A stretch of DNA of 36,504 nucleotides from an archaeon (GTDB lineage Archaea; Nanobdellota; Nanobdellia; Pacearchaeales; UBA284). The DNA is taken from the NCBI GenBank assembly GCA_030612665.1, contig JAUWNL010000006.1:1-36504 (forward strand), read 5' to 3'. Position 1 is the first letter of the stretch. Every line of letters begins with the position of its first letter. The notes under the pieces were generated by a model, which had not been told where the DNA came from, made no database searches, and saw only the letters and a list, made by a program, of their open reading frames with translations. Positions 9,678 to 33,478 of this stretch are shown piece by piece. Made by a program: the position numbers and the translations under genes.

Positions 9678-10271
9678 TTATAACTTTTTTATCGGACAAG
9701 AAGTAAAATCTTCTTTAGTCAATCTAAAATAATTAGAGCAACAATCAATTAATTCATTTGACAAAGAAAACTTTGATCTTCTTTTTCTATCAAAATAAGT
9801 ATAAAGAATAACTTCTATTTTGTCTCTTTTCTTTATATCTCTAATTATTGGACAAAAATCTGTATCTGAAGAAACTAATATAATTTTTTTTATCTCAGGA
9901 AAATCATCTTTTATGTGGCCCAAATTTATAGTTAATAAAGTGTCTACTCCTTTTTGACGGAATTCAAGTTTTCCCTTTTCATTAAGTATTCTTTGACATC
10001 TTCCTTCCATTATTGTCAGATCTTTATTTTTAGATAATGCAGTAATAAATTTATCATGGCCCTTTTTTCTTTCTGCTTCCTCTTTTGTTGGTTTGTCTGA
10101 TTGAAAAGGTGGACAGGTATAATAAAATAAATGTTTACAAAGAAAGTTTTGTTTTTTTGCAATTCTTTTAGCAAAATCAAATTTATCAAACTTTATCCTT
10201 TTTCCGCCTCCAAATAGTTTGAGTAATTTATCTAAAAATCCTTCATCAATAAAAACTAATGTTTCTTCCAT
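9678..10271 (-). CDS. NYN-domain (PIN-like, LabA/DUF88-type) nuclease, copy 1
   Basis: TLVFIDEGFLDKL, QKGVDTLLTI, SSDTDFCPII conserved Asp motifs. Confidence 0.8.
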   Translation of the reverse strand: MEETLVFIDEGFLDKLLKLFGGGKRIKFDKFDFAKRIAKKQNFLCKHLFYYTCPPFQSDKPTKEEAERKKGHDKFITALSKNKDLTIMEGRCQRILNEKGKLEFRQKGVDTLLTINLGHIKDDFPEIKKIILVSSDTDFCPIIRDIKKRDKIEVILYTYFDRKRRSKFSLSNELIDCCSNYFRLTKEDFTSCPIKKL

Positions 10272-10329
10272 ATTTGTAAGCTTCCTTTTAAGTTTAAATA
10301 TTTAGCTAGAAATCCAAAAATAAAATCAT

Positions 10330-10353
10330 CTAGCGACCCCGTAGGATCACTAG
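10330..10353 (-). ncRNA. 5'-leader RNA hairpin of NYN copy 1
   Basis: CUAGUGAUCC-UACG-GGGUCGCUAG: 10-bp stem, C(UACG)G tetraloop of UNCG type; matches element at 14833-14856. Confidence 0.65.
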
Positions 10354-10383
10354 GGAACATTCTAATAATATGTAATATTTGTG

Positions 10384-10392
10384 ATTTATAAA
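10384..10392 (-). promoter_or_regulatory. TATA box of NYN copy 1
   Basis: TTTATAAAT, 23 nt upstream of ATG at 10360; identical spacing in copy 2. Confidence 0.55.
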
Positions 10393-10528
10393 ACTTACTA
10401 TCTCTTTGATTTGGATTTTGAGTTTGATGAATCCAAAAGCATCTGGGGCATTCTTCCATCAAGTTTAGGGATGATGGGGAGAACTTGAATGTTTTTTTAA
10501 TTTTTTCCATTTCCCTTCTTTTCTTCTT

Positions 10529-10657
10529 TTATTTCCCGCAATGTGTTTTTTCATTTATTTTATGATGATAATCTTGACATTCATCGCATTTACCATGTCT
10601 TTCATAATCATAAGGACATAGACAAGAAGAACAAGAATCTTCTTCTGATTTTTCCAT
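10529..10657 (-). CDS. 42-aa Cys-rich zinc-binding-like protein (resembles DUF6485)
   Basis: MEKSEEDSCSSCLCPYDYERHGKCDECQDYHHKINEKTHCGK*; below the ORF track length cutoff. Confidence 0.55.
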   Translation of the reverse strand: MEKSEEDSCSSCLCPYDYERHGKCDECQDYHHKINEKTHCGK

Positions 10658-10683
10658 CTTTATATTATTTTTTATTTCTTTCT

Positions 10684-12249
10684 TTATTTCTTTGTTATAT
10701 TTTGTAGGGGTTTCACTTTTGTCCCTTCAGAGGTATCTTCGATTGTGTAGCCTTGCTGTTTTATTTGTTCTCTGAGTTTATCTGCGATAGGGAAGTTTTT
10801 GTTTTTTCTTGCTTGTTCTCTTTGTTTTATTAATTGAGAGATTTTTTCTGGGATTTTTATTTTTTCTTCTTTTACTTTATCAAGATCTAAAGCAAAAATT
10901 TTATCAAAAATAAGAATTAGGGAGTATTTTTCATTATTTTTTAGATTATTATCTTTGACAACTTTCCAAAGCAATGCGAGAGCCTTTGGCATGTTTAAAT
11001 CGTCATTAATTACTTTTTCAAATTCTTTTTTATATTTTGATATTCTGTCTGAACTTATTTGTCTTACTTCAAGATTTTGTTTTATCTCTAAGATTCTTTT
11101 TTTAAGGGAATTAAAAGCATTTTGTGCTGCATCCAGGTTTTGCCATGAAAATTCAAGTTGTGTTCTATAATGAGCAGTGAGACAAAAGTATCTGTAGGTT
11201 AAGGAATTATATCCTTTATTTTCAAGAGCAGAAATTGTGAAGATGTTTCCCTCACTTTTTGCCATCTTTTCTTCTTTGAACAATAACCATCTTGCATGTA
11301 ACCAATAATTCACAACTTTTTTTCCTGTTGCAGCTTCACTCTGGGCTATCTCATTTGTATGATGAATTTGAATATGATCCTCTCCTCCAGTATGGATGTC
11401 AAAATTTTCTCCGAGATAAGCCATGGACATTGCAGAACATTCAATATGCCAGCCAGGCCATCCTTCTCCCCACGGACTCTGCCATTTGAAAATATGGCCC
11501 CTGAATTTTGAACCTTTATCTGAGAACCAAAGCACAAAGTCTCTTGGATTTTTCTTTTCTTTATCTATCTCAACACTTACTCCTGCCTTTTGATCTTCTA
11601 ACTTAAGGTTTGCAAGTTTTGTATATTTTTTGAACTTGGATGTATTAAAATAAACATTTCCATTTTTTCCAATGTATGTATAACCCTTTTCTTCCATTCT
11701 TTCGATTAGAGTTATCATTTCTTTGATATGTTCTGTGGCCTTTGGCCATACATCTGGTTCAGTTATGTTTAGTTTTTGTAAATCTTGTTTGAAAATATTT
11801 GTATATTTTTTAGCTAACTTTAACATTGATTCTTTTGTCAGTGGAAGATTTTCTCTTTTGAGGGCTTGAATCATTTTATCTTCGCCAGTATCAGCATCAC
11901 TCGTGAGATGACCAACATCAGTTATATTCATTACATGTCTGATAGTATAACCATTATAGGTAAGAACTCGTTTAAGAATATCAGAAAAAATATAAGTTCT
12001 CATGTTGCCTATATGTTGATACCAATAGACTGTTGGGCCACAACTATAAATTCCAACTATATCTTTTTTTATTGGTTTGAATAATTGTTTTTTTCTTTTT
12101 AGGGTATTATAGAGATAAAGTTTAGGATGTTTGAATTCCAACCCAATTTTCTTTATTCTTTCAATCTTCTTCGTCTTTTTGGTTTCTTTTCTTTTCTTCC
12201 CTATCCTTCTTGTTTTGCTTTTCTTTCTAGACTTTGGTCTTGATTTCAT
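10684..12249 (-). CDS. cysS: Cysteinyl-tRNA synthetase with basic N-terminal extension
   Basis: GIYSCGPTVYWYQHIGNMRTYIFSD, WPGWHIECSAMSMAYLG, FDIHTGGEDHIQIHHTNEIAQSEA, KMAKSEGN. Confidence 0.95.
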   Translation of the reverse strand: MKSRPKSRKKSKTRRIGKKRKETKKTKKIERIKKIGLEFKHPKLYLYNTLKRKKQLFKPIKKDIVGIYSCGPTVYWYQHIGNMRTYIFSDILKRVLTYNGYTIRHVMNITDVGHLTSDADTGEDKMIQALKRENLPLTKESMLKLAKKYTNIFKQDLQKLNITEPDVWPKATEHIKEMITLIERMEEKGYTYIGKNGNVYFNTSKFKKYTKLANLKLEDQKAGVSVEIDKEKKNPRDFVLWFSDKGSKFRGHIFKWQSPWGEGWPGWHIECSAMSMAYLGENFDIHTGGEDHIQIHHTNEIAQSEAATGKKVVNYWLHARWLLFKEEKMAKSEGNIFTISALENKGYNSLTYRYFCLTAHYRTQLEFSWQNLDAAQNAFNSLKKRILEIKQNLEVRQISSDRISKYKKEFEKVINDDLNMPKALALLWKVVKDNNLKNNEKYSLILIFDKIFALDLDKVKEEKIKIPEKISQLIKQREQARKNKNFPIADKLREQIKQQGYTIEDTSEGTKVKPLQNITKK

Positions 12250-12384
12250 AATACATAAAGAAAAAAAGGATATAAAAAATTATCCTATTGCTATGTCCTT
12301 TTGCTATTCAACTCTTGTTATTGTTTTGTTATTATTGTATCAATAGACTAAAAACTAACAGCAGACTATAGACTAACAAACAAA

Positions 12385-12945
12385 CTAACAGACAGATTGT
12401 TGTAGCCAACCTGCTCTTTTGATATTGAGCCTCATAGTTGGGCTTGCAATTGTTTGGCCACCTTTTTTTACTTCAACCTCGATGACAATCATTCCTTCTG
12501 GAGCATTATCTGGTGGTCTTATTGCAAAAGTAGCATATTCTGTTGTTCCTGGTCCTACTGATTTAGTTCCTGTTAGAGATTCTGTTATCCATCCAGTAGT
12601 GTCTATATTTTGTCCACTTATATCTTTTGCACTAGTGATAGTAAAACTATAGGTATAAGTTGTCTGGACTTTGGGTTGGAAACCACACCCAATAATATTA
12701 TAATTTTCTGGAATAATATCAATTGGAGTTCTTACGCCTATGCAAGTAACTTCCTCACCTCTTTCTTCTCCAAAAAGTTTGTTGATTTCTGACTGTGCAC
12801 CTTCAAGGGTCGTTGTGGCAATATTCATTGCACCACACATTATTGTTCTGATAAAAACTAACCCAAGAATTAACATGACAACTGCCATGACTATTACAAT
12901 TATAGTAGTCATTGACATCTCAAAAGCTGCTTTCTTGTTTTTCAT
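12385..12945 (-). CDS. Pilin-like/secreted protein with N-terminal hydrophobic helix
   Basis: KKAAFEMSMTTIIVIVMAVVMLILGLVFIR class III-signal-like N-terminus, beta-rich body. Confidence 0.55.
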   Translation of the reverse strand: MKNKKAAFEMSMTTIIVIVMAVVMLILGLVFIRTIMCGAMNIATTTLEGAQSEINKLFGEERGEEVTCIGVRTPIDIIPENYNIIGCGFQPKVQTTYTYSFTITSAKDISGQNIDTTGWITESLTGTKSVGPGTTEYATFAIRPPDNAPEGMIVIEVEVKKGGQTIASPTMRLNIKRAGWLQQSVC

Positions 12946-13068
12946 TCTCTTTTCTTTTACTTTTATTGCCTCTTTTTTATTTAATATTTTAAAGTAAGAC
13001 TATTTTATAAAGGTTTTTAAATGTTTTTGCTAAATGTTTTGCTAGATTTTGTTTGATTTTATTTGATA

Positions 13069-13142
13069 TGGGAAGTCGGGGGTTTGAACCCCGGACACTG
13101 CGGGCTTCAGCCGCATGCTCTCCCAGACTGAGCTAACTTCCC
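13069..13142 (-). tRNA. tRNA-Phe (GAA)
   Basis: GGGAAGTTAGCTCAGTCTGGGAGAGCATGCGGCTGAAGCCCGCAGTGTCCGGGGTTCAAACCCCCGACTTCCCA; cloverleaf folds, anticodon loop CTGAAGC. Confidence 0.92.
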
Positions 13143-13195
13143 ATGTTTTAAATGCAGAAGAGAGACTTTATAAATCTATTTTTGTTTTGGAGATT

Positions 13196-14542
13196 ATGAT
13201 TAAAATTTATACTGTCGGTGGATTTAGTGAAGTGGGTAAGAACATGACAGCAGTTGATCTTGGAGAAGATGCTGTGTTGTTTGATTGTGGTCTTTTTCTT
13301 CCACCTATTGTTGAAATGGAGAACCAAGAGAAAGAATGGACTGAAAAAAAGCTTAGAATGATTAAGGCAGTACCTGATGATCTTATCTTAGATAAAATAG
13401 GAGTTAGAAATAAAGTAAGAGCCATACTTGTGAGTCATGCTCATCTTGATCATGTTGGTGCAGTACCTTATCTTGCTTCGAGATATAATGCAGAGGTTGC
13501 AGCAACTCCTTTTACAATTGAAGTTCTTAAGTCTTTATTGAAAGATTCGGGCATTAAACTGAAAAATAAACTTAGGGCTATTAATCCAAATGGAAATTAT
13601 ACTATCCATGGCAAGAGAAAAGATTACAAGGTTGAATTTTTGAACATTACTCATTCAACACTTCAAACTGCTTTGATTGCCTTACATACAGACAAGGGAG
13701 TTATTCTTTATGCTAATGATTTTAAATTTGATAATTATCCTGTTCTCGGAAAAAAGCCAAACTATAAACGGCTTAAAGAGCTTAGTGAAAAAGGCAAAGG
13801 CATTTTAGCTTTGGTTGTTGATTCTCTTTATTCTGGTGAAGAACGAAAGACACCAAGTGAAAAAATTGCTAGGGGATTGTTAGAAGATGTATTACTTACT
13901 ACACATAATCAAAATTCTGCAATTATTGTAACAACTTTCTCCAGTCATTTGGCAAGAATTAAAAGTATTGTTGATTGTGCTACTCAACTTGGCCGTAAGA
14001 TTGTTTTTATTGGTCGTTCTCTTCGCCGTTATGTAAGTGCAGCTGATGCAATTAATCTTGTGCCTTTTATGAATAAAGTTAATAATTTGATTAGTTATAA
14101 AAACGAAATTGAGAGAGTTATGAGAAAAGTTATGAAAAATAGAAATGAGTGGTTGATTGTTTGTACTGGTCATCAAGGGGAACCAGGCTCGGTTCTTGAA
14201 AGAATGGCTAGAGATACTATGCCTTTTAAGATTCTTGCTAATGATCATATTATTTTTTCTTCAAGCATTATTCCTAGTCCAATAAATGTTGCTAACAGAA
14301 GACAACTTGAAAAAAGACTTAAAGCTAAGGGAGCAAGAATTTTTACAGATGTCCATGTATCTGGACATTGTGGTAGAGAAGACCTACGTGACTTGATTGA
14401 AATGACTCAACCTAAACATATTATTCCAGCTCATGGAGACCTAAAAAAATTAGCTCCGATGGTTGAGTTAGCTCGCGAGATGGGTTATAAACTTGGAAAG
14501 ACAGTGCATTTAATGCAAGATGGACAGAAGTTAATTTTATAA
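13196..14542 (+). CDS. Archaeal RNase J (beta-CASP metallo-beta-lactamase)
   Basis: SHAHLDHVGAVPYL; beta-CASP region and C-terminal SGHCGREDLRDLIEMTQPKHIIPAHGD; start set at MIKIYTVGGFSEVGKN because the supplied ORF start lies in the tRNA region. Confidence 0.9.
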   Translation: MIKIYTVGGFSEVGKNMTAVDLGEDAVLFDCGLFLPPIVEMENQEKEWTEKKLRMIKAVPDDLILDKIGVRNKVRAILVSHAHLDHVGAVPYLASRYNAEVAATPFTIEVLKSLLKDSGIKLKNKLRAINPNGNYTIHGKRKDYKVEFLNITHSTLQTALIALHTDKGVILYANDFKFDNYPVLGKKPNYKRLKELSEKGKGILALVVDSLYSGEERKTPSEKIARGLLEDVLLTTHNQNSAIIVTTFSSHLARIKSIVDCATQLGRKIVFIGRSLRRYVSAADAINLVPFMNKVNNLISYKNEIERVMRKVMKNRNEWLIVCTGHQGEPGSVLERMARDTMPFKILANDHIIFSSSIIPSPINVANRRQLEKRLKAKGARIFTDVHVSGHCGREDLRDLIEMTQPKHIIPAHGDLKKLAPMVELAREMGYKLGKTVHLMQDGQKLIL

Positions 14543-14556
14543 ATAAAGGGTATTTC

Positions 14557-14748
14557 TTGTTTGGTATGGTAAGAGAAGATTTGATTGCAGCATTAAGGAA
14601 TGCTATTGAAAGAGGCGAAACTCTTGAAGAGGCTATAGAGAGTCTTGAAAATGCAGGCTACAATAGAATTGATATTGAAGAAGCTTCAAGACAATTAAGA
14701 AATGTGAGAAAAGAAGGCTCTTTCTTACCTCCTGCTCCACGAAGGTGA
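14557..14748 (+). CDS. 63-aa UBA/CUE-like helical protein
   Basis: LEEAIESLENAGYNRIDIEEASRQL, immediately downstream of RNase J. Confidence 0.45.
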   Translation: MFGMVREDLIAALRNAIERGETLEEAIESLENAGYNRIDIEEASRQLRNVRKEGSFLPPAPRR

Positions 14749-14793
14749 AAGGTAAATTAGTATAAGGTTAAGGGAAAATGAAAATACGAAAGA

Positions 14794-14802
14794 TTTATAA
14801 AT
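14794..14802 (+). promoter_or_regulatory. TATA box of NYN copy 2
   Basis: TTTATAAAT, 23 nt upstream of ATG at 14826; same spacing as copy 1. Confidence 0.55.
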
Positions 14803-14832
14803 TATATAGATATAATATTAATAACATGATCC

Positions 14833-14856
14833 CCAGTGATCCTAATGGGTCGCTGG
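14833..14856 (+). ncRNA. 5'-leader RNA hairpin of NYN copy 2
   Basis: CCAGUGAUCC-UAAU-GGGUCGCUGG: 10-bp stem; U-A in copy 1 replaced by C-G. Confidence 0.65.
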
Positions 14857-14914
14857 ATGAGTTTTTTTTTCTTAGTAATTTTTTTAGATATAATAAATTA
14901 AGGAGAATATTTTT

Positions 14915-15505
14915 ATGGAACCTACTTTGGTCTTCATAGATGCTGGATTTTTATCTAAATTAAATAAACATTTTGGTAAGGGCAGATATATTAAATATGA
15001 TATCTTAAAGTTTGCTAAATTATTATCAAAAAAACAAAATTTATTTTGTAAGAATATTTTTTACTATACTGCTCCTCCCTTTCAAAGTCCAAGACCTACA
15101 AAAGAGGAATCGATAAGATATAAACAATATGACAAATTCATAAAGAAATTATCTTCTAATGAAATTATTTTAATAAGAGAAGGAAGATGTCAACGATTAA
15201 AAATTAATACAGGAATTTTTATATACAAACAAAAAGCTGTTGATTCATTAGTAATTATGGATATGATGACCGTCCCAATAGACTTTCCAGATATAAAAAA
15301 AATAATTTTAATCGTTTGTGATAGTGATTTTGTTCCAGCCATTAATAAATTAAAAAAATTAAATATTAAAAGCATTCTTTATACTTACTACGATAAGAAA
15401 AGAAATTCTTTATTTTCAACATCAAACGAATTGATAAAAACTGTTGATAAATATGTTCTTTTAAATAAGGCAGATTTTCATAGCTGTCTTTTAAATTTAA
15501 AATGA
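14915..15505 (+). CDS. NYN-domain (PIN-like) nuclease, copy 2
   Basis: TLVFIDAGFLSKL, QKAVDSLVIMD, VCDSDFVPAI; aligns end-to-end with copy 1. Confidence 0.8.
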   Translation: MEPTLVFIDAGFLSKLNKHFGKGRYIKYDILKFAKLLSKKQNLFCKNIFYYTAPPFQSPRPTKEESIRYKQYDKFIKKLSSNEIILIREGRCQRLKINTGIFIYKQKAVDSLVIMDMMTVPIDFPDIKKIILIVCDSDFVPAINKLKKLNIKSILYTYYDKKRNSLFSTSNELIKTVDKYVLLNKADFHSCLLNLK

Positions 15506-16719
15506 AATTTGCACATTTAGCTGATTGCCATCTTGGTTCATGGAAAAGTTCTAAACTACAGAGACTGAACATGGAATCATTTAAGTTTGCTATTGCAAGA
15601 TGTATTCAAGAGAAAGTTGATTTTGTATTGATTGCTGGTGATTTGTTTGATGCGGCAATTCCTTCGATTGATGTTCTTAAAGAAGCTACTGCCAAACTCA
15701 AAGAATTAAGTGATAATAATATTGAATGTTATATTATCCCAGGCTCTCATGATTTTAGTGTTTCAGGAAAAAGCATGATTCATGTTCTCGAGAAAGCAGG
15801 ATTATGTCATAATGTAGCTGAATCTGGTTCTGTTGAAACCACGGATTATTTCATTACAGGCCTTAAAGGAGAAAAAAGAGGTCTTGAAGTAAAAAATGTT
15901 GGTTCAATCAAAGATATTGAGAAAAAAAATAAATTTAAGATTTTGATGTTACATACAACTCTCAAAGAAATGAATCTACCTTTTATTGATTCTGTTTCTC
16001 TAAAAGATCTTCCTAAAGGATTTGATTATTATGCCCTTGGCCATATTCATATCAAGAAAATTTTTGATAAAGATAGAGGAAAAAGCAAGGTTGTTTATCC
16101 CGGAGCATTATTTCCTTGTAATTTTTCTGAACTCGAGCATTTTCATTTTGGTTCTTTTTTTATTGTGAAGTTTGATAAAGTTAAGGGAATAGATTTACAA
16201 GAAATTAAAGTTAAAATTAAAGAAGTAATTAATTTTGATATTAATGCAGATAATGAAAATCCACAAAGTTTAAAAGAAAAAGTAATTGAGAAAATTAATG
16301 TTAGTGTAACCAATAATGTAACCAATAAAATAGTTACACTAAGAATTTCAGGGATTCTTGCTTCTGGAAAACCAAGTGAAATTGATTTTAGAATTATTAA
16401 TGAAGAATTTGAAAAAGCAGGCGCTTATTGCGTGCTTAGGAATACTTCTAAACTTATGAGCAAGGAATTCGAATTAGCTTATAAAGAACTTAAAGACCTT
16501 GAAATTGATACAGTTGATATTTTTAATTTCGAGAAAGAGATTATCAAGAAAATGATTGAACAGAAAATTATTGAACATGGAGATAAAGATAAAGTGATTG
16601 AATTAATGAAATGTTTTGATGTGGAAAAAATAGAAGGAGAAACTAACGATACTTTCGCTTATCGACTCACGAATGAAGTTATAAAAAAATTAAAATTAAA
16701 ATTCATAAAAAAATGTTGA
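15502..16719 (+). CDS. mre11: Mre11-like DNA repair exonuclease
   Basis: HLADCHLGSW, AGDLFDAA, IPGSHDFSVSG, YALGHIHIKK; ATGA overlap with NYN copy 2. Confidence 0.9.
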   Translation: MKFAHLADCHLGSWKSSKLQRLNMESFKFAIARCIQEKVDFVLIAGDLFDAAIPSIDVLKEATAKLKELSDNNIECYIIPGSHDFSVSGKSMIHVLEKAGLCHNVAESGSVETTDYFITGLKGEKRGLEVKNVGSIKDIEKKNKFKILMLHTTLKEMNLPFIDSVSLKDLPKGFDYYALGHIHIKKIFDKDRGKSKVVYPGALFPCNFSELEHFHFGSFFIVKFDKVKGIDLQEIKVKIKEVINFDINADNENPQSLKEKVIEKINVSVTNNVTNKIVTLRISGILASGKPSEIDFRIINEEFEKAGAYCVLRNTSKLMSKEFELAYKELKDLEIDTVDIFNFEKEIIKKMIEQKIIEHGDKDKVIELMKCFDVEKIEGETNDTFAYRLTNEVIKKLKLKFIKKC

Positions 16720-29298: not shown

Positions 29299-29366
29299 CA
29301 GAACCTAACCTAATTTAGAACCTAATCGAACCTAATTAGAACCTTGCCTTTTTGACTTTTTCTCAT
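29299..29366 (-). repeat. Array repeat copy B with iterated AGGTTCT units
   Basis: Minus strand ATGAGAAAAAGTCAAAAAGGCAAGGTTCTAATTAGGTTCGATTAGGTTCTAAATTAGGTTAGGTTCTG. Confidence 0.65.
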
Positions 29367-30634
29367 TCTTGTTCTTGAAGAAGCCATTTCCATAATGGGA
29401 TAAACTTAACTTTTTTACCTTCAACTATTTCTTCTGCTTCATAATCTTTTGTTAGAATAAGCAGATTATTACACTTTAGTTCTCTGCTTGCTTTGATTAA
29501 AGCTCTAATCTCTCTTTCTTTAATCTCATTTTTATTATCTGCATATGTAACTTGGATTAATTGTTTTATATTTGTTCTTTCTTTTATAACAAAATCAACT
29601 TCATTTTGTTGATAATCTTTCCAGTAGTAAATTTCAATTAAAGGATTAAGTGATTTTTTTCTTTGTAATTCTATTGCAACAGAATTTTCCATAAGTTTGC
29701 CAAAATTTTCTGAAAATCTAAAACCAGTTATATTTACAATACCATTGTCAATACAATAAATCTTTTTTGGTGCTAAAAATTGTTGCTTTAATTTAAAGGA
29801 AAATCTTTCTAACTTAAGAATTAAAAAAGAATCTTCTAAATAAGAGATCCACTTTGATAATGTAGAAACATGTTTCACATTTAAAATTTTTGCTAATTTG
29901 CTATAACTAATCTCTTCGCAAAAGTTTGTAATTAAATATTTTGCTAATTTTTTAAATTCTTCTTTTTTCTTAATTTCATATCTTAATAGAATATCTTTTG
30001 TGATTATATCCCCATAGATCTTCGGTAAAATCGGTTTTCCAAATTTATTAACTTCTGGGAAACCCCCCACTTCTAAATATTCCTTTAAAAGTTTCAGAAT
30101 TTTTGCTTTCTCTTTTGTAGTATAAACTTTACTTTTCTTTATTTGATTTAAGTCTAAAAATTCCTTAAAAGAAAATGGAAAAAGTATTATATCTAAATGT
30201 CTGCCAGTTAAATGTGTAGCCAATTCACCAGCCAAAAGTTTTGAATTACTTCCAGTTATTATAACTCTTTTTGTTCTTCTTAATCTATTAGCAAAAAGCT
30301 CCCATTTTTTAATATTTTGAATTTCGTCTAAAATAAGATAGTTTATATCCTCATAAAGCTCATAAAAAGCTTGTAAAATTTCATTTAAATCTTCAGTTTT
30401 TGTTCCTGTTAATCTTTCATCATCAAAATTAATATACCCAAATTTGCTTTTTTTAGCGAGCAAATAAGAAAAAATTGATTTTCCACATCTTCTAATCCCA
30501 GTAACTACAAGAACATTTGGATACTTTAAGAATTTTTTCCCCTCATCTAAAAATTCTCTTTTAATTATTTTTTCTTGTTTTTCAATCTGTTCAAGTTCTT
30601 TTCTTTGTTCCTTTATTATTGTCTTAAAATCCAT
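29363..30634 (-). CDS. AAA ATPase with DUF4143 C-terminal domain (ATPase 3)
   Basis: VVTGIRRCGKSIFSYLL Walker A, NYLILDEIQNI Walker B, ENSVAIELQRKKS...YYWKDYQQNEVDFVIKE. Confidence 0.88.
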   Translation of the reverse strand: MDFKTIIKEQRKELEQIEKQEKIIKREFLDEGKKFLKYPNVLVVTGIRRCGKSIFSYLLAKKSKFGYINFDDERLTGTKTEDLNEILQAFYELYEDINYLILDEIQNIKKWELFANRLRRTKRVIITGSNSKLLAGELATHLTGRHLDIILFPFSFKEFLDLNQIKKSKVYTTKEKAKILKLLKEYLEVGGFPEVNKFGKPILPKIYGDIITKDILLRYEIKKKEEFKKLAKYLITNFCEEISYSKLAKILNVKHVSTLSKWISYLEDSFLILKLERFSFKLKQQFLAPKKIYCIDNGIVNITGFRFSENFGKLMENSVAIELQRKKSLNPLIEIYYWKDYQQNEVDFVIKERTNIKQLIQVTYADNKNEIKEREIRALIKASRELKCNNLLILTKDYEAEEIVEGKKVKFIPLWKWLLQEQE

Positions 30635-30639
30635 GATAA

Positions 30640-30676
30640 TATAATAGAAAACTTCTTTAAAAACCTTTCTATTATA
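30640..30676. promoter_or_regulatory. 11-bp inverted repeat in ATPase 3 promoter
   Basis: TATAATAGAAA-N15-TTTCTATTATA. Confidence 0.6.
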
Positions 30677-30738
30677 CTGGTAAGATTTTAGAAGTTAAAT
30701 TAAGACAGATTAAAACATAGAAAAAGATTAATTTTAAT

Positions 30739-30768
30739 TCAGAACCTCATTTTCTGACTTTTTCTCAT
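30739..30768 (-). repeat. Array repeat copy C
   Basis: ATGAGAAAAAGTCAGAAAATGAGGTTCTGA = MRKSQKMRF*, overlapping ATPase 2 stop. Confidence 0.75.
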
Positions 30769-32051
30769 TCTTCCCGCTCTTGAAGAAGCCATTTCCATAA
30801 AGGAATGAATTTAACTTTTTTACCTTCAATTATTTCTTCGGCTTCATAATCTTCTGTTATGATTAACCCTCTATTTATCTTGAATTTTTTCAATACTTCC
30901 ATTAAACCATTAATTTCTCGTTTTTTAACATCAATATTTTCACTATCATAACAGACCTGAATTGCTTCTTTTATTTTTAATCCTTCTTTTATCAAAAAAT
31001 CACATTCATATTTATTTTTCCAATAATAAATTTCTTTCTGTTTTCTTTTTAATTCTATAAAAACAGCATTTTCATATGCCCTTCCAATATTCTCACTAAA
31101 GTTGAAACCAACATTATTAAAAAATCCAAGATCACAAACATAAATTTTTTTTGAACTTATCTGCTGCGTTCTGACAGAATAAGAAAACTTTGGCAAAAGA
31201 AAAAATAAAAATACTTCTTTAAAATAATGCAAGTAGGTATTTATACTTTCTAAAGATAAGCCATATGTTCTCGAATATTTTCTCAAATTAAAAAGGCATG
31301 TTGAATTGGAAACTAGAAAATCTGCTAGAGGTTTTATTTTTATATAATTTATATTATATCTTTCCACTATATCTTTATGGATTACATCATTGAAATATTC
31401 AATAAGAATCCTTTTTTTTAAAGCAGGATTTTTAAAAAAAACTTCTGGAAATCCTCCCCATTTTAGAAAAGAAAATAATTCTTTTTTTATCCTGTTAATT
31501 TCTTCTCTGTTTAATAAATGACCAAAATTGATTTTTTTCCAATTAAGATATTCTGCAAAAGAAAGTGGTAGAACAATGAATCTAGTTGTTCTTCCTGTCA
31601 ATGCTTGCGCGTATTCTGATTTAATAAATTTTGAAGAAGAATCAGTTATAAAGATTTGCTTTACTTTTTTTAAATCATACAGCTTTCTTAAAAAGAGGAC
31701 CCATTCTTTACATCTGTGAACTTCATCAAGAAAAAGATATGGTTTTGTGTCAGGATTTATATTTGACTGATATATATCAAAAATTTCCCTTAAGCTTTTT
31801 TTTGCTAATACATCATCCTCAAAGTTTATTAATAAAATTTCCTCAGGCTGAATATTTTTGGCCATTAACTGATTAATTAACTGATAAAATAAAGTCGACT
31901 TGCCACTTCTTCTTATGCCAATTAATAACTTCATTTCTCTTGATGTTTCTTTTTTTAATTCCTTTAAGATTATTCTTTCTTTTCCCAATAAATCTGCTTC
32001 TACTGCTTTCTCTTTCCACCAGTGATTCCATTCAGCTAATGCACTTATCAT
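30765..32051 (-). CDS. AAA ATPase with DUF4143 C-terminal domain (ATPase 2)
   Basis: LLIGIRRSGKSTLFYQL, KPYLFLDEVHRCKEW, ENAVFIELKRKQKEIYYWKNKYECDFLIKEG. Confidence 0.88.
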   Translation of the reverse strand: MISALAEWNHWWKEKAVEADLLGKERIILKELKKETSREMKLLIGIRRSGKSTLFYQLINQLMAKNIQPEEILLINFEDDVLAKKSLREIFDIYQSNINPDTKPYLFLDEVHRCKEWVLFLRKLYDLKKVKQIFITDSSSKFIKSEYAQALTGRTTRFIVLPLSFAEYLNWKKINFGHLLNREEINRIKKELFSFLKWGGFPEVFFKNPALKKRILIEYFNDVIHKDIVERYNINYIKIKPLADFLVSNSTCLFNLRKYSRTYGLSLESINTYLHYFKEVFLFFLLPKFSYSVRTQQISSKKIYVCDLGFFNNVGFNFSENIGRAYENAVFIELKRKQKEIYYWKNKYECDFLIKEGLKIKEAIQVCYDSENIDVKKREINGLMEVLKKFKINRGLIITEDYEAEEIIEGKKVKFIPLWKWLLQEREE

Positions 32052-32064
32052 ACTAATTTAATAG

Positions 32065-32085
32065 AACATTTAGTTCTTAAATGTT
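32065..32085. promoter_or_regulatory. 8-bp inverted repeat in ATPase 2 promoter
   Basis: AACATTTA-GTTCT-TAAATGTT. Confidence 0.45.
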
Positions 32086-32135
32086 TCGTTTTATTAGAAC
32101 ATTATAAAATTAAAAACTATGTTCATTCCTAGAAC

Positions 32136-32165
32136 TCAGAACCTCATCTTCTGGCTTTTTCTCAT
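32136..32165 (-). repeat. Array repeat copy D
   Basis: ATGAGAAAAAGCCAGAAGATGAGGTTCTGA = MRKSQKMRF*, overlapping ATPase 1 stop. Confidence 0.75.
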
Positions 32166-33478
32166 TCTTGTTCTTGAAGAAGCCATTTCCATAATGGGAT
32201 AAACTTAACTTTTTTACCTTCAACTATTTCTTCTGCTTCATAATCTTCTGTTATAACAAGAAGATTTTTACATTTTAATTCTTTACTTGCCTTGAGCAAT
32301 GCTTTTATTTCTCGTTTTTTTGTATCATAATCTTTTAGATTAGAACAGACTTGGATAAGATGTTTAATTTTTAGGCCTTCTTTCATCACAAAATCAACTT
32401 CTTTTCCATCTTTTGATTTCCAATAAAAAATTTTTATTTTTTTCTTTTTTAGAGATTTTTTAAAAAGATGAATTGCTGCACAATTTTCCATTATTCTTCC
32501 TTTATCTTCAGAAAATTTAAATCCAAAATAATTAATAAAACCATTATCTAAACAATAAATTTTTCTTGGATATTGAAGCTGTTCTTTAATTTTATATGAA
32601 AAAATTTGAATATCAAAAAATAAAAATGAATCTTTCATAAGCCAAAAATATTTTTCTAGAGTTGGAACAGAAATTTTTATATTTCTCTCTTTTAATATAT
32701 TTGAAAGTTTTGAAAAACTTGTTAATCTTGCCGCGTAGCTGCAGAGGAAATAGCCCATTTCTTCAATAATCTCTTTATTTTTTACTTTGGGCATAATATC
32801 CTTAGTTATTATGTCAAGAAATAATGTTTCAATTATTTCTTCATTGTCACTCAAAACAGCCTCTGGAAAACCACCTTTCATTAAATATTCTCTTAAAAAT
32901 TTCTCTATTTTTGCCTTTTTTTCTTCTGTAATAATCTTTCCATATTCAAATCCTTTAAATTTTAGGAATTCTTTAAAACTTAAAGGAAAAACAACTGTCG
33001 TTAGGTGTCTTCCAGTAAGAAGATAATTAAGTTTTGATTTTGTTAGTTTGGAGGTTGAACCTGAAATAAATATTTTTATTTTCCCTTTAAATTCATCATA
33101 AATACTTCGTAGATATTTTTCCCAATTTTTTATTTTTTGTACTTCATCTAAAAAGAGGTAGAGGCGCCCAAATTTATCCAATAGCTCTTCTTCATGAATT
33201 ATCTCAATTAAATCATTAAAATATTTTTCTTCTAATGGAAATAATTTTCTGCTTTCAAAATTAATATAGATTATTGCTTCTTTCTTTACTTTTTCAAGAA
33301 GCTTTTTTATGGTGAGCATCATAAGATAAGTTTTGCCTGATCTTCGAGGCCCGACTATGTCATTAATCAGATCTCCATCTGTTTTAAGCCAAATTTCTCT
33401 TTCTTTAATTTCTGGCAGAATTTTTACTCTTTGTTCTTCAAGGTATATCCTTAACTTATCTTTACGATTTTCCATCAT
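32162..33478 (-). CDS. AAA ATPase with DUF4143 C-terminal domain (ATPase 1)
   Basis: IVGPRRSGKTYLMML, RLYLFLDEVQKIKNW, ENCAAIHLFKK...KEVDFVMKEGLKIKHLIQVC. Confidence 0.88.
   Translation of the reverse strand: MMENRKDKLRIYLEEQRVKILPEIKEREIWLKTDGDLINDIVGPRRSGKTYLMMLTIKKLLEKVKKEAIIYINFESRKLFPLEEKYFNDLIEIIHEEELLDKFGRLYLFLDEVQKIKNWEKYLRSIYDEFKGKIKIFISGSTSKLTKSKLNYLLTGRHLTTVVFPLSFKEFLKFKGFEYGKIITEEKKAKIEKFLREYLMKGGFPEAVLSDNEEIIETLFLDIITKDIMPKVKNKEIIEEMGYFLCSYAARLTSFSKLSNILKERNIKISVPTLEKYFWLMKDSFLFFDIQIFSYKIKEQLQYPRKIYCLDNGFINYFGFKFSEDKGRIMENCAAIHLFKKSLKKKKIKIFYWKSKDGKEVDFVMKEGLKIKHLIQVCSNLKDYDTKKREIKALLKASKELKCKNLLVITEDYEAEEIVEGKKVKFIPLWKWLLQEQE

Follow-up and report, generated by a model that had tools for sequence, protein, structure and literature searches.

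A covarying hairpin ahead of NYN nuclease genes in Pacearchaeales, a candidate RNA ligand of the encoded nuclease

Introduction

The window analysed here is a stretch of 36,504 nucleotides (nt) of archaeal DNA (order Pacearchaeales, assembly GCA_030612665.1, contig JAUWNL010000006.1, positions 1 to 36,504). It belongs to a 0.67-Mb genome whose named relatives are mostly Pacearchaeota, and it contains two genes for NYN-domain nucleases, each preceded by a 24-nt hairpin. A third hairpin copy in the same genome stands ahead of a third NYN gene. Judged from its covariation among relatives, the hairpin is a genuine RNA element. It appears to lie at the transcript 5' end of a mobile one-gene cassette, composed of promoter, hairpin, U-tract and NYN ribonuclease gene, which inserts at host gene starts. 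In the reading we favour, with a probability of a little under one half (about 0.48), the NYN nuclease recognises the hairpin ahead of its own gene as its cognate RNA ligand, and the hairpin restrains the expression or activity of this nuclease.

Results

Structure and covariation of the hairpin

Both window copies reveal the upstream layout described in an original prediction made from the letters of the window, at the positions given there: TTTATAAAT, 23 nt, the motif ATGNTCC, the 24-nt hairpin, 58 nt and the ATG of the NYN gene. Copy 2 lies on the forward strand, with the hairpin at 14833..14856 and the NYN gene at 14915..15505; copy 1 lies on the reverse strand, with the hairpin at 10330..10353 and the NYN gene at 9678..10271. 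A covariance model, R1, built from 62 host copies, scores the two hairpins at 69.8 bits (E 5.8e-11) and 65.3 bits (E 4e-10), respectively. Compared with dinucleotide shuffles, the leaders have folding z-scores of -3.5 and -5.1. The prediction had described eight identical stem pairs and one compensatory exchange. The exchange (U-A in copy 1, C-G in copy 2) is real and affects pair 2, while the stem comprises ten pairs, nine of which are identical. The claim of a shared spacing likewise stands in one part: the distance from TATA box to hairpin is conserved in the family, but the 58 nt between hairpin and NYN start are a coincidence of the two copies, the family range being 2-269 nt.

As predicted, many further homologues occur upstream of NYN genes, and their variation preserves pairing. 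Paired cells amount to 98.4% in alignment A1 and to 97.7% in alignment A2 (100 distinct rows), where seven of the ten stem pairs vary on both sides. The covariation measure reaches 0.406 against 0.213 +/- 0.010 after shuffling, a value attained by none of 500 shuffles. Pair 2-23 is represented by four pair types among relatives, pair 10-15 by A-U, U-A and U-G, and pair 3-22 by A-U or G-C in 31 and 31 rows with not a single mixed case. In the pattern used for the genome scan, the loop and positions 2 and 23 were unconstrained, and R or Y was accepted at 3 and 22; pairing at these positions was thus not imposed by the search. The U.G pair 8-17 is retained in 97 of 100 rows, and the frequent loops UUCG, UACG, GCAA and GAAA are UNCG or GNRA tetraloops. 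Diverged copies keep the stem with other letters, e.g. CGCATGGTCC-TACG-GGGCCGTGCG (L220) and CCAGTATTCC-TACG-GGAATGCTGG (L221). In the eight loci compared with Rfam 15, none of its 4227 models matched the element.

The one-sided conservation of GTGATC together with the near-fixed U.G pair would fit a specific recognition surface. The archaeal 16S rRNA 3' end reads GGATCAC, and GTGATC was considered as a Shine-Dalgarno (SD) sequence pairing with it, but only six bases are fixed and no start codon stands at the right spacing.

Further stem-loops accompany the hairpin in some loci. An NYN clade with the motif VDDGFF or VDNGFF carries a second stem-loop upstream of the hairpin, at the predicted 5' end (L043, L166, L174, L186, L190, L191, L196, L198, L199, L202, L213). 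It is of the kind CAGUC-UUCG-GACUG, with letters varying by locus, and the TATA box lies about 18 nt further upstream. In L003 and L005, a stem-loop CCCCGGUAU...AUGCCGGG is found between the hairpin and a divergent NYN gene of the DANNWYHN type, with a trace of it in L216.

Promoter, predicted 5' end and U-tract

The base-frequency profile at -49 to -31 resembles an archaeal transcription factor B recognition element (BRE) and TATA box, and consists across the family of a BRE-like R-N-A-A-R plus TTTATAAA. In the window, the TATA boxes are located at 14794..14802 (copy 2, forward strand, with BRE-like bases directly upstream) and 10384..10392 (copy 1, reverse strand). In 71 elements, 35 nt separate the hairpin from the centre of the TATA box. 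A separate NYN clade has an additional hairpin, frequently with a UUCG loop, ahead of the first, which widens this distance to about 53 nt. A coding Tyr-Lys motif was rejected as the source of the TATA signal: the Tyr codon TAC occurs in none of 84 cases while non-synonymous TATA variants do occur, which argues for a promoter signal.

In archaea, transcription usually starts 24-28 nt from the TATA box. By this distance, the transcript is predicted to start at or beside ATGNTCC, which is ATGATCC at 14826..14832 (forward strand) in copy 2 and ATGTTCC at 10354..10360 (reverse strand) in copy 1. Behind the hairpin follow an ATGA and a U-tract, ATGAGTTTTTTTTTC in copy 2 (14857..14871, forward strand) and the U-rich ATGATTTTATTTTTGG in copy 1 (10314..10329, reverse strand). 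T is enriched at +5 to +14 across 118 elements, and runs of at least five T are present in 77 of them, compared with 29 of 118 control windows.

Distribution among archaea

With at most two mismatches, the hairpin pattern matched 34 of 200 genomes of the order. It does not arise by chance, since the reversed control matched no genome and the leaders fold below their shuffles. Among 180 genomes of the order, 65 contain the element according to the covariance model, with 96 copies in all; in the class it turns up in scattered families. In a scan of 84,980 species, 52 stretches matched, namely 51 from DPANN-type or unassigned records of metagenome-assembled genomes and a single chance match in Nocardia. 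The viral matches L094, L096 and L231 and the genome matches L029 and L073 were likewise judged to be chance.

Association with one NYN nuclease subfamily

The predicted tie between hairpin and NYN genes is strong: the model matches 2-269 nt upstream of 74 of the 83 close NYN relatives in the 180 genomes. Among the nine remaining genes, five are preceded by a diverged hairpin at the equivalent position, three lie at contig ends and one has an upstream gap of N. Distant NYN matches stand near an element in only 2 of 38 cases, both being fragments of close-family genes. Counted by element, an NYN reading frame lies no more than 250 nt away in 93 of 110, and NYN starts or remnants were recognised by eye in another four. 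NYN-related open reading frames (ORFs) were found in 52 of 55 loci; the next best ORFs (6 of 55) are overlapping minus-strand frames. No recurrent partner gene other than NYN was found around these 55 loci, and the suggestion of an RNA-guided module found no sign in its favour.

Both window NYN proteins exceed the curated cut-off of PF01936 (24.2 bits) with 29.4 and 41 bits, at E 1.3e-6 for copy 1 and 3.6e-10 for copy 2, which shows conserved catalytic Asp residues and the NYN fold. Among 48 members, D110 and D138 are invariant and D9, D116 and D136 are conserved to at least 90%. A structure model (predicted local distance difference test 95.6) has its best PDB matches in VPA0982 and the MARF1 NYN ribonuclease domain. 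The LabA-like NYN model of PADLOC matches 40 of the 48 members. Several genes of the subfamily contain in-frame stops or frameshifts with the hairpin retained (G042:C26, G120:C2, G128:C8, G009:C35), and decay of the nuclease seems to be common.

Mobility of the cassette

The unit of promoter, hairpin and NYN gene is a mobile cassette. For copy 2, insertion at the start codon of mre11, accompanied by a duplication of some nine bases, is well supported, because sister genomes show the empty site and the flanks are duplicated. The sequence reads 'AAGGTTAAGGGAAAATGAAA' before the cassette and 'AAAATGAAATTTGCACAT' after it, and 'AAGGCTAAGGGAAAATGATATTCGCACAT' at the empty site of G005. On the forward strand, the left copy of the duplicated target AAAATGAAA (14775..14783) represents the former mre11 start codon and is preceded by its SD-like AAGGG (14770-14774). 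The right copy (15499..15507) holds the present start of the mre11/sbcD-like gene (15502..16719), overlapping the NYN stop. In the sister genomes, mre11 occurs without NYN, mostly with a small ORF and an RNase J-like gene in front, in the order RNase J-like gene, small ORF, mre11, rad50. A second insertion case is given by G047, where the cassette stands ahead of an aldolase-like gene with 16 orthologues in relatives without NYN.

At E<1e-8, 12 of 82 loci repeat their pre-promoter sequence immediately after the NYN stop, whereas the 246 control pairs show no such repeat. These repeats comprise, e.g., 128 nt at 85% identity (L158), 46 nt at 93% (L003) and, as a further case, 71 nt at 97% (L128). 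Upstream of the TATA box, ATG codons with an SD sequence in the frame of the hairpin are enriched and are best read as remnant starts of other genes. Ahead of copy 1, a truncated gene 5' end (10395..10510, reverse strand) is in frame with the hairpin peptide (ORF 10256-10510). By its motifs we take it to be a fragment of a PD-(D/E)XK-like nuclease gene, although it has no family match. The copy on C41 has the same 5' fragment, and a longer gene with the same start follows behind its NYN.

Neither a transposase nor a recombinase was seen in the cassette, which encodes NYN only and has no recurrent partner; no terminal repeats are visible, and the right end follows the NYN stop with no motif shared by eye. 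Some glycan loci have a truncated gene start as each of their two flanking repeats, which would allow recombination between gene starts as an alternative to transposition. An ATGA overlap of NYN with the next gene was dismissed as an insertion signal, the baseline among other gene pairs in these loci being 25%. In L128, L158, L065, L131 and L081, short ORFs form repeated leaders before NYN and again before DUF3800-like or epimerase-like genes. These leader ORFs resemble glycosyltransferase N-termini (LLVFASTFPRW..., MNxLFITRSCSKxKGGKE...). Among the genes behind the cassette, those we take from their motifs to be hsdM-like (L077, L120, L196) and PD-(D/E)XK-like (L064, L003, L216) each recur three times, and a presumably PheT-like gene twice (L076, L151).

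Viral copies

The hairpin was also identified in four related tailed-virus contigs of IMG/VR (L093, L095, L100, L107). There it occupies an intergenic leader between a neck or tail-completion gene and the next, probably tail, gene, in one case directly before the ATG of the tail gene. Under a model built without viral copies, the two best-scoring hairpins reach 62 bits (E about 1e-9 for 116 kb), and the remaining pair 36 bits. The related viruses L098 and L101 are without the hairpin, and no NYN genes of the subfamily were found in viral contigs or phage records. These viruses probably infect the same archaeal hosts; consistent with this, one genome of the order encodes a relative of the protein behind the L095 hairpin. 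In three of the viral leaders a larger junction-like structure, with a closing stem of the GUGCAA/UUGCAC type, seems to lie directly before the hairpin (L093 6025-6205 (-), L095 740-885 (-), L100).

Discussion

Proposed mechanism

The NYN nuclease is the most economical reader of the hairpin, because the two co-occur almost without exception. We infer that the nuclease binds its own leader and probably cuts it or is held by it, and leader binding would keep the level of the cassette's own nuclease low. Negative autoregulation and an antitoxin-like restraint in trans would both follow from such binding. The U-tract may stop part of transcription early, which would favour an excess of short hairpin RNA over NYN message. 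Viruses of the same hosts might use the hairpin as a nuclease decoy or exploit the same recognition. A fuller version seems doubtful to us: an entirely new kind of selfish or defensive module, a mobile single gene that inserts at archaeal gene starts and rebuilds the invaded start behind it, with a leader hairpin RNA restraining NYN and with viral mimics as counter-defence.

Several findings weigh against the hairpin as ligand of the nuclease behind it. The four viral hairpins stand without an NYN gene, orphan hairpins make up about 12% of genomic copies, and a host-factor model accounts for both just as readily. About one locus in four has the hairpin inside the NYN reading frame, so a leader RNA that can be separated does not exist everywhere, and a weak U-tract follows some of these fused copies. 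Hairpin type and NYN clade are linked, for which common descent alone would suffice.

Alternative explanations

The order of promoter, RNA, terminator-like U-tract and RNase gene recalls type III toxin-antitoxin systems. In a system of this kind, a short hairpin RNA terminated at the U-tract would act in trans as antitoxin of a toxic NYN, with mimics carried by viruses. The NYN genes are solitary, patchy, multi-copy and sometimes decayed, orphan RNAs are left behind, viral copies are comparable to the pseudo-ToxI of phage PhiTE, and the candidate defence model HEC-09 of PADLOC matches 31 of 48 members. However, a single hairpin with neither tandem repeats nor a pseudoknot is unlike the known type III antitoxins, the fold is NYN rather than ToxN, and fused copies are without a clear U-tract; we consider this explanation unlikely. 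Similar weight is due to a 5'-end stabiliser or translation element that is read by a host factor, i.e., a shield against RNase J, the ribosome or an Sm-like protein, and that serves cassette and viruses alike. It would accommodate the predicted 5'-terminal position, the stable tetraloops, the U-tract, the tolerance of coding and non-coding contexts and the viral position in a tail gene leader, once directly before the ATG. Yet the hairpin occurs almost only with one NYN subfamily and not before ordinary host genes, and the fixed GTGATC arm and the U.G pairs exceed the specificity that a generic stabiliser would require.

An element acting at the DNA level, a subterminal hairpin recognised in cassette movement like the ends of IS200/IS605 or repetitive extragenic palindromic (REP) elements, is improbable. 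The hairpin does lie near the left end of the mobile cassette, but U.G pairs and UNCG/GNRA loops point to RNA, it keeps a fixed place with respect to the promoter, viral copies occur without the rest of the cassette, and a matching right-end hairpin was not noticed. Conservation due to a coded peptide (MxPSDPxGSLDDFF), with the hairpin as by-product, deserves hardly any credence and was rejected as the main cause on the evidence of reading frames, stops and coupled non-synonymous changes. Both window hairpins read PSDPxGSLDD or PSDPxGSLDE in one frame, that of copy 1 within an 84-codon ORF; the frame is open in most copies and continues into NYN in about a quarter, and an in-frame upstream ATG with SD sequence is enriched. 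Against this, coupled Ser/Gly and Leu/Pro replacements track base pairing exactly (the 31 and 31 unmixed rows), in-frame loop stops or a lost ATG occur (L006, L023; ATA in 30 of 119), the frame is shifted in L018_2, and the diverged hairpins L222-L224 lack the peptide. A conserved leader peptide, proposed from the depletion of upstream stops and the in-frame ATG, was discarded too, as remnant starts of invaded genes explain these features better.

Relation to known systems

Regnase-1 uses a stem-loop in its own message to degrade that message (PMC8241994). Regnase-1 (Zc3h12a) and the archaeal nuclease share a PIN/NYN-like RNase and a conserved stem-loop in the own transcript. However, Regnase-1 is a eukaryotic zinc-finger protein with several targets in 3' untranslated regions, whereas the archaeal cassette has one hairpin at the predicted 5' end and a mobile gene, with cleavage only proposed. 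In type III systems, the RNA antitoxin is encoded ahead of its RNase gene, and mimics are known from phages (PMC5086642, PMC3475682). In ToxIN, CptIN and TenpIN, a single promoter serves an RNA element, a terminator and then an RNase gene, an order like that of the cassette, where the U-tract may act as terminator; in these systems the RNA and its toxin co-evolve, and phages can mimic the RNA. In contrast, the cassette shows no tandem repeats or pseudoknot, its NYN protein does not have the ToxN fold, and the hairpin is sometimes inside the nuclease frame. There is one hairpin per gene, the sole tandem pair (L162) being two promoter-hairpin units. We would regard both systems as precedents for the logic and not as families to which the module belongs.

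A CRISPR-linked (clustered regularly interspaced short palindromic repeats) NYN protein is an active Mn-dependent RNase (PMC11346440). LabA-like and CRISPR-associated NYN ribonucleases and the MARF1 NYN domain share fold and catalytic acids with the cassette protein. Unlike the cassette genes, the distant NYN genes in the same genomes are without the hairpin. To our knowledge, no hairpin leader has been reported for LabA-like, CRISPR-associated or MARF1 NYN proteins. Free-standing homing endonuclease genes and simple insertion sequences resemble the cassette as single nuclease genes in many sites, with short to long flanking repeats and with empty sites in sister genomes. The cassette differs from both in that neither terminal inverted repeats nor a transposase were seen and that the invaded gene start recurs behind the insert. 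We know of no NYN protein that acts as a DNA integrase.

The hairpin at the predicted message start of a nuclease gene that inserts into gene starts, together with viral copies of the hairpin alone, suggests a nuclease module under RNA control that has so far gone unrecognised. Since most DPANN archaea are uncultured, little is known of their regulatory RNAs or of their toxin- or defence-like modules. Here, an RNA element is resolved to the nucleotide and tied to one nuclease subfamily and to viruses, such that protein-RNA recognition can be tested with synthetic pieces without the organism. If the nuclease does recognise its leader, RNA-controlled RNase modules would extend to archaeal NYN proteins. 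The start-codon insertions further raise the question of how a gene without visible transposase moves.

Other features of the window

On the reverse strand of the window, 29363-33478 contains three tandem paralogous ATPase-like genes. Their C-termini (...EDYEAEEIVEGKKVKFIPLWKWLLQE) are nearly identical while the remainder has diverged, which suggests gene conversion.

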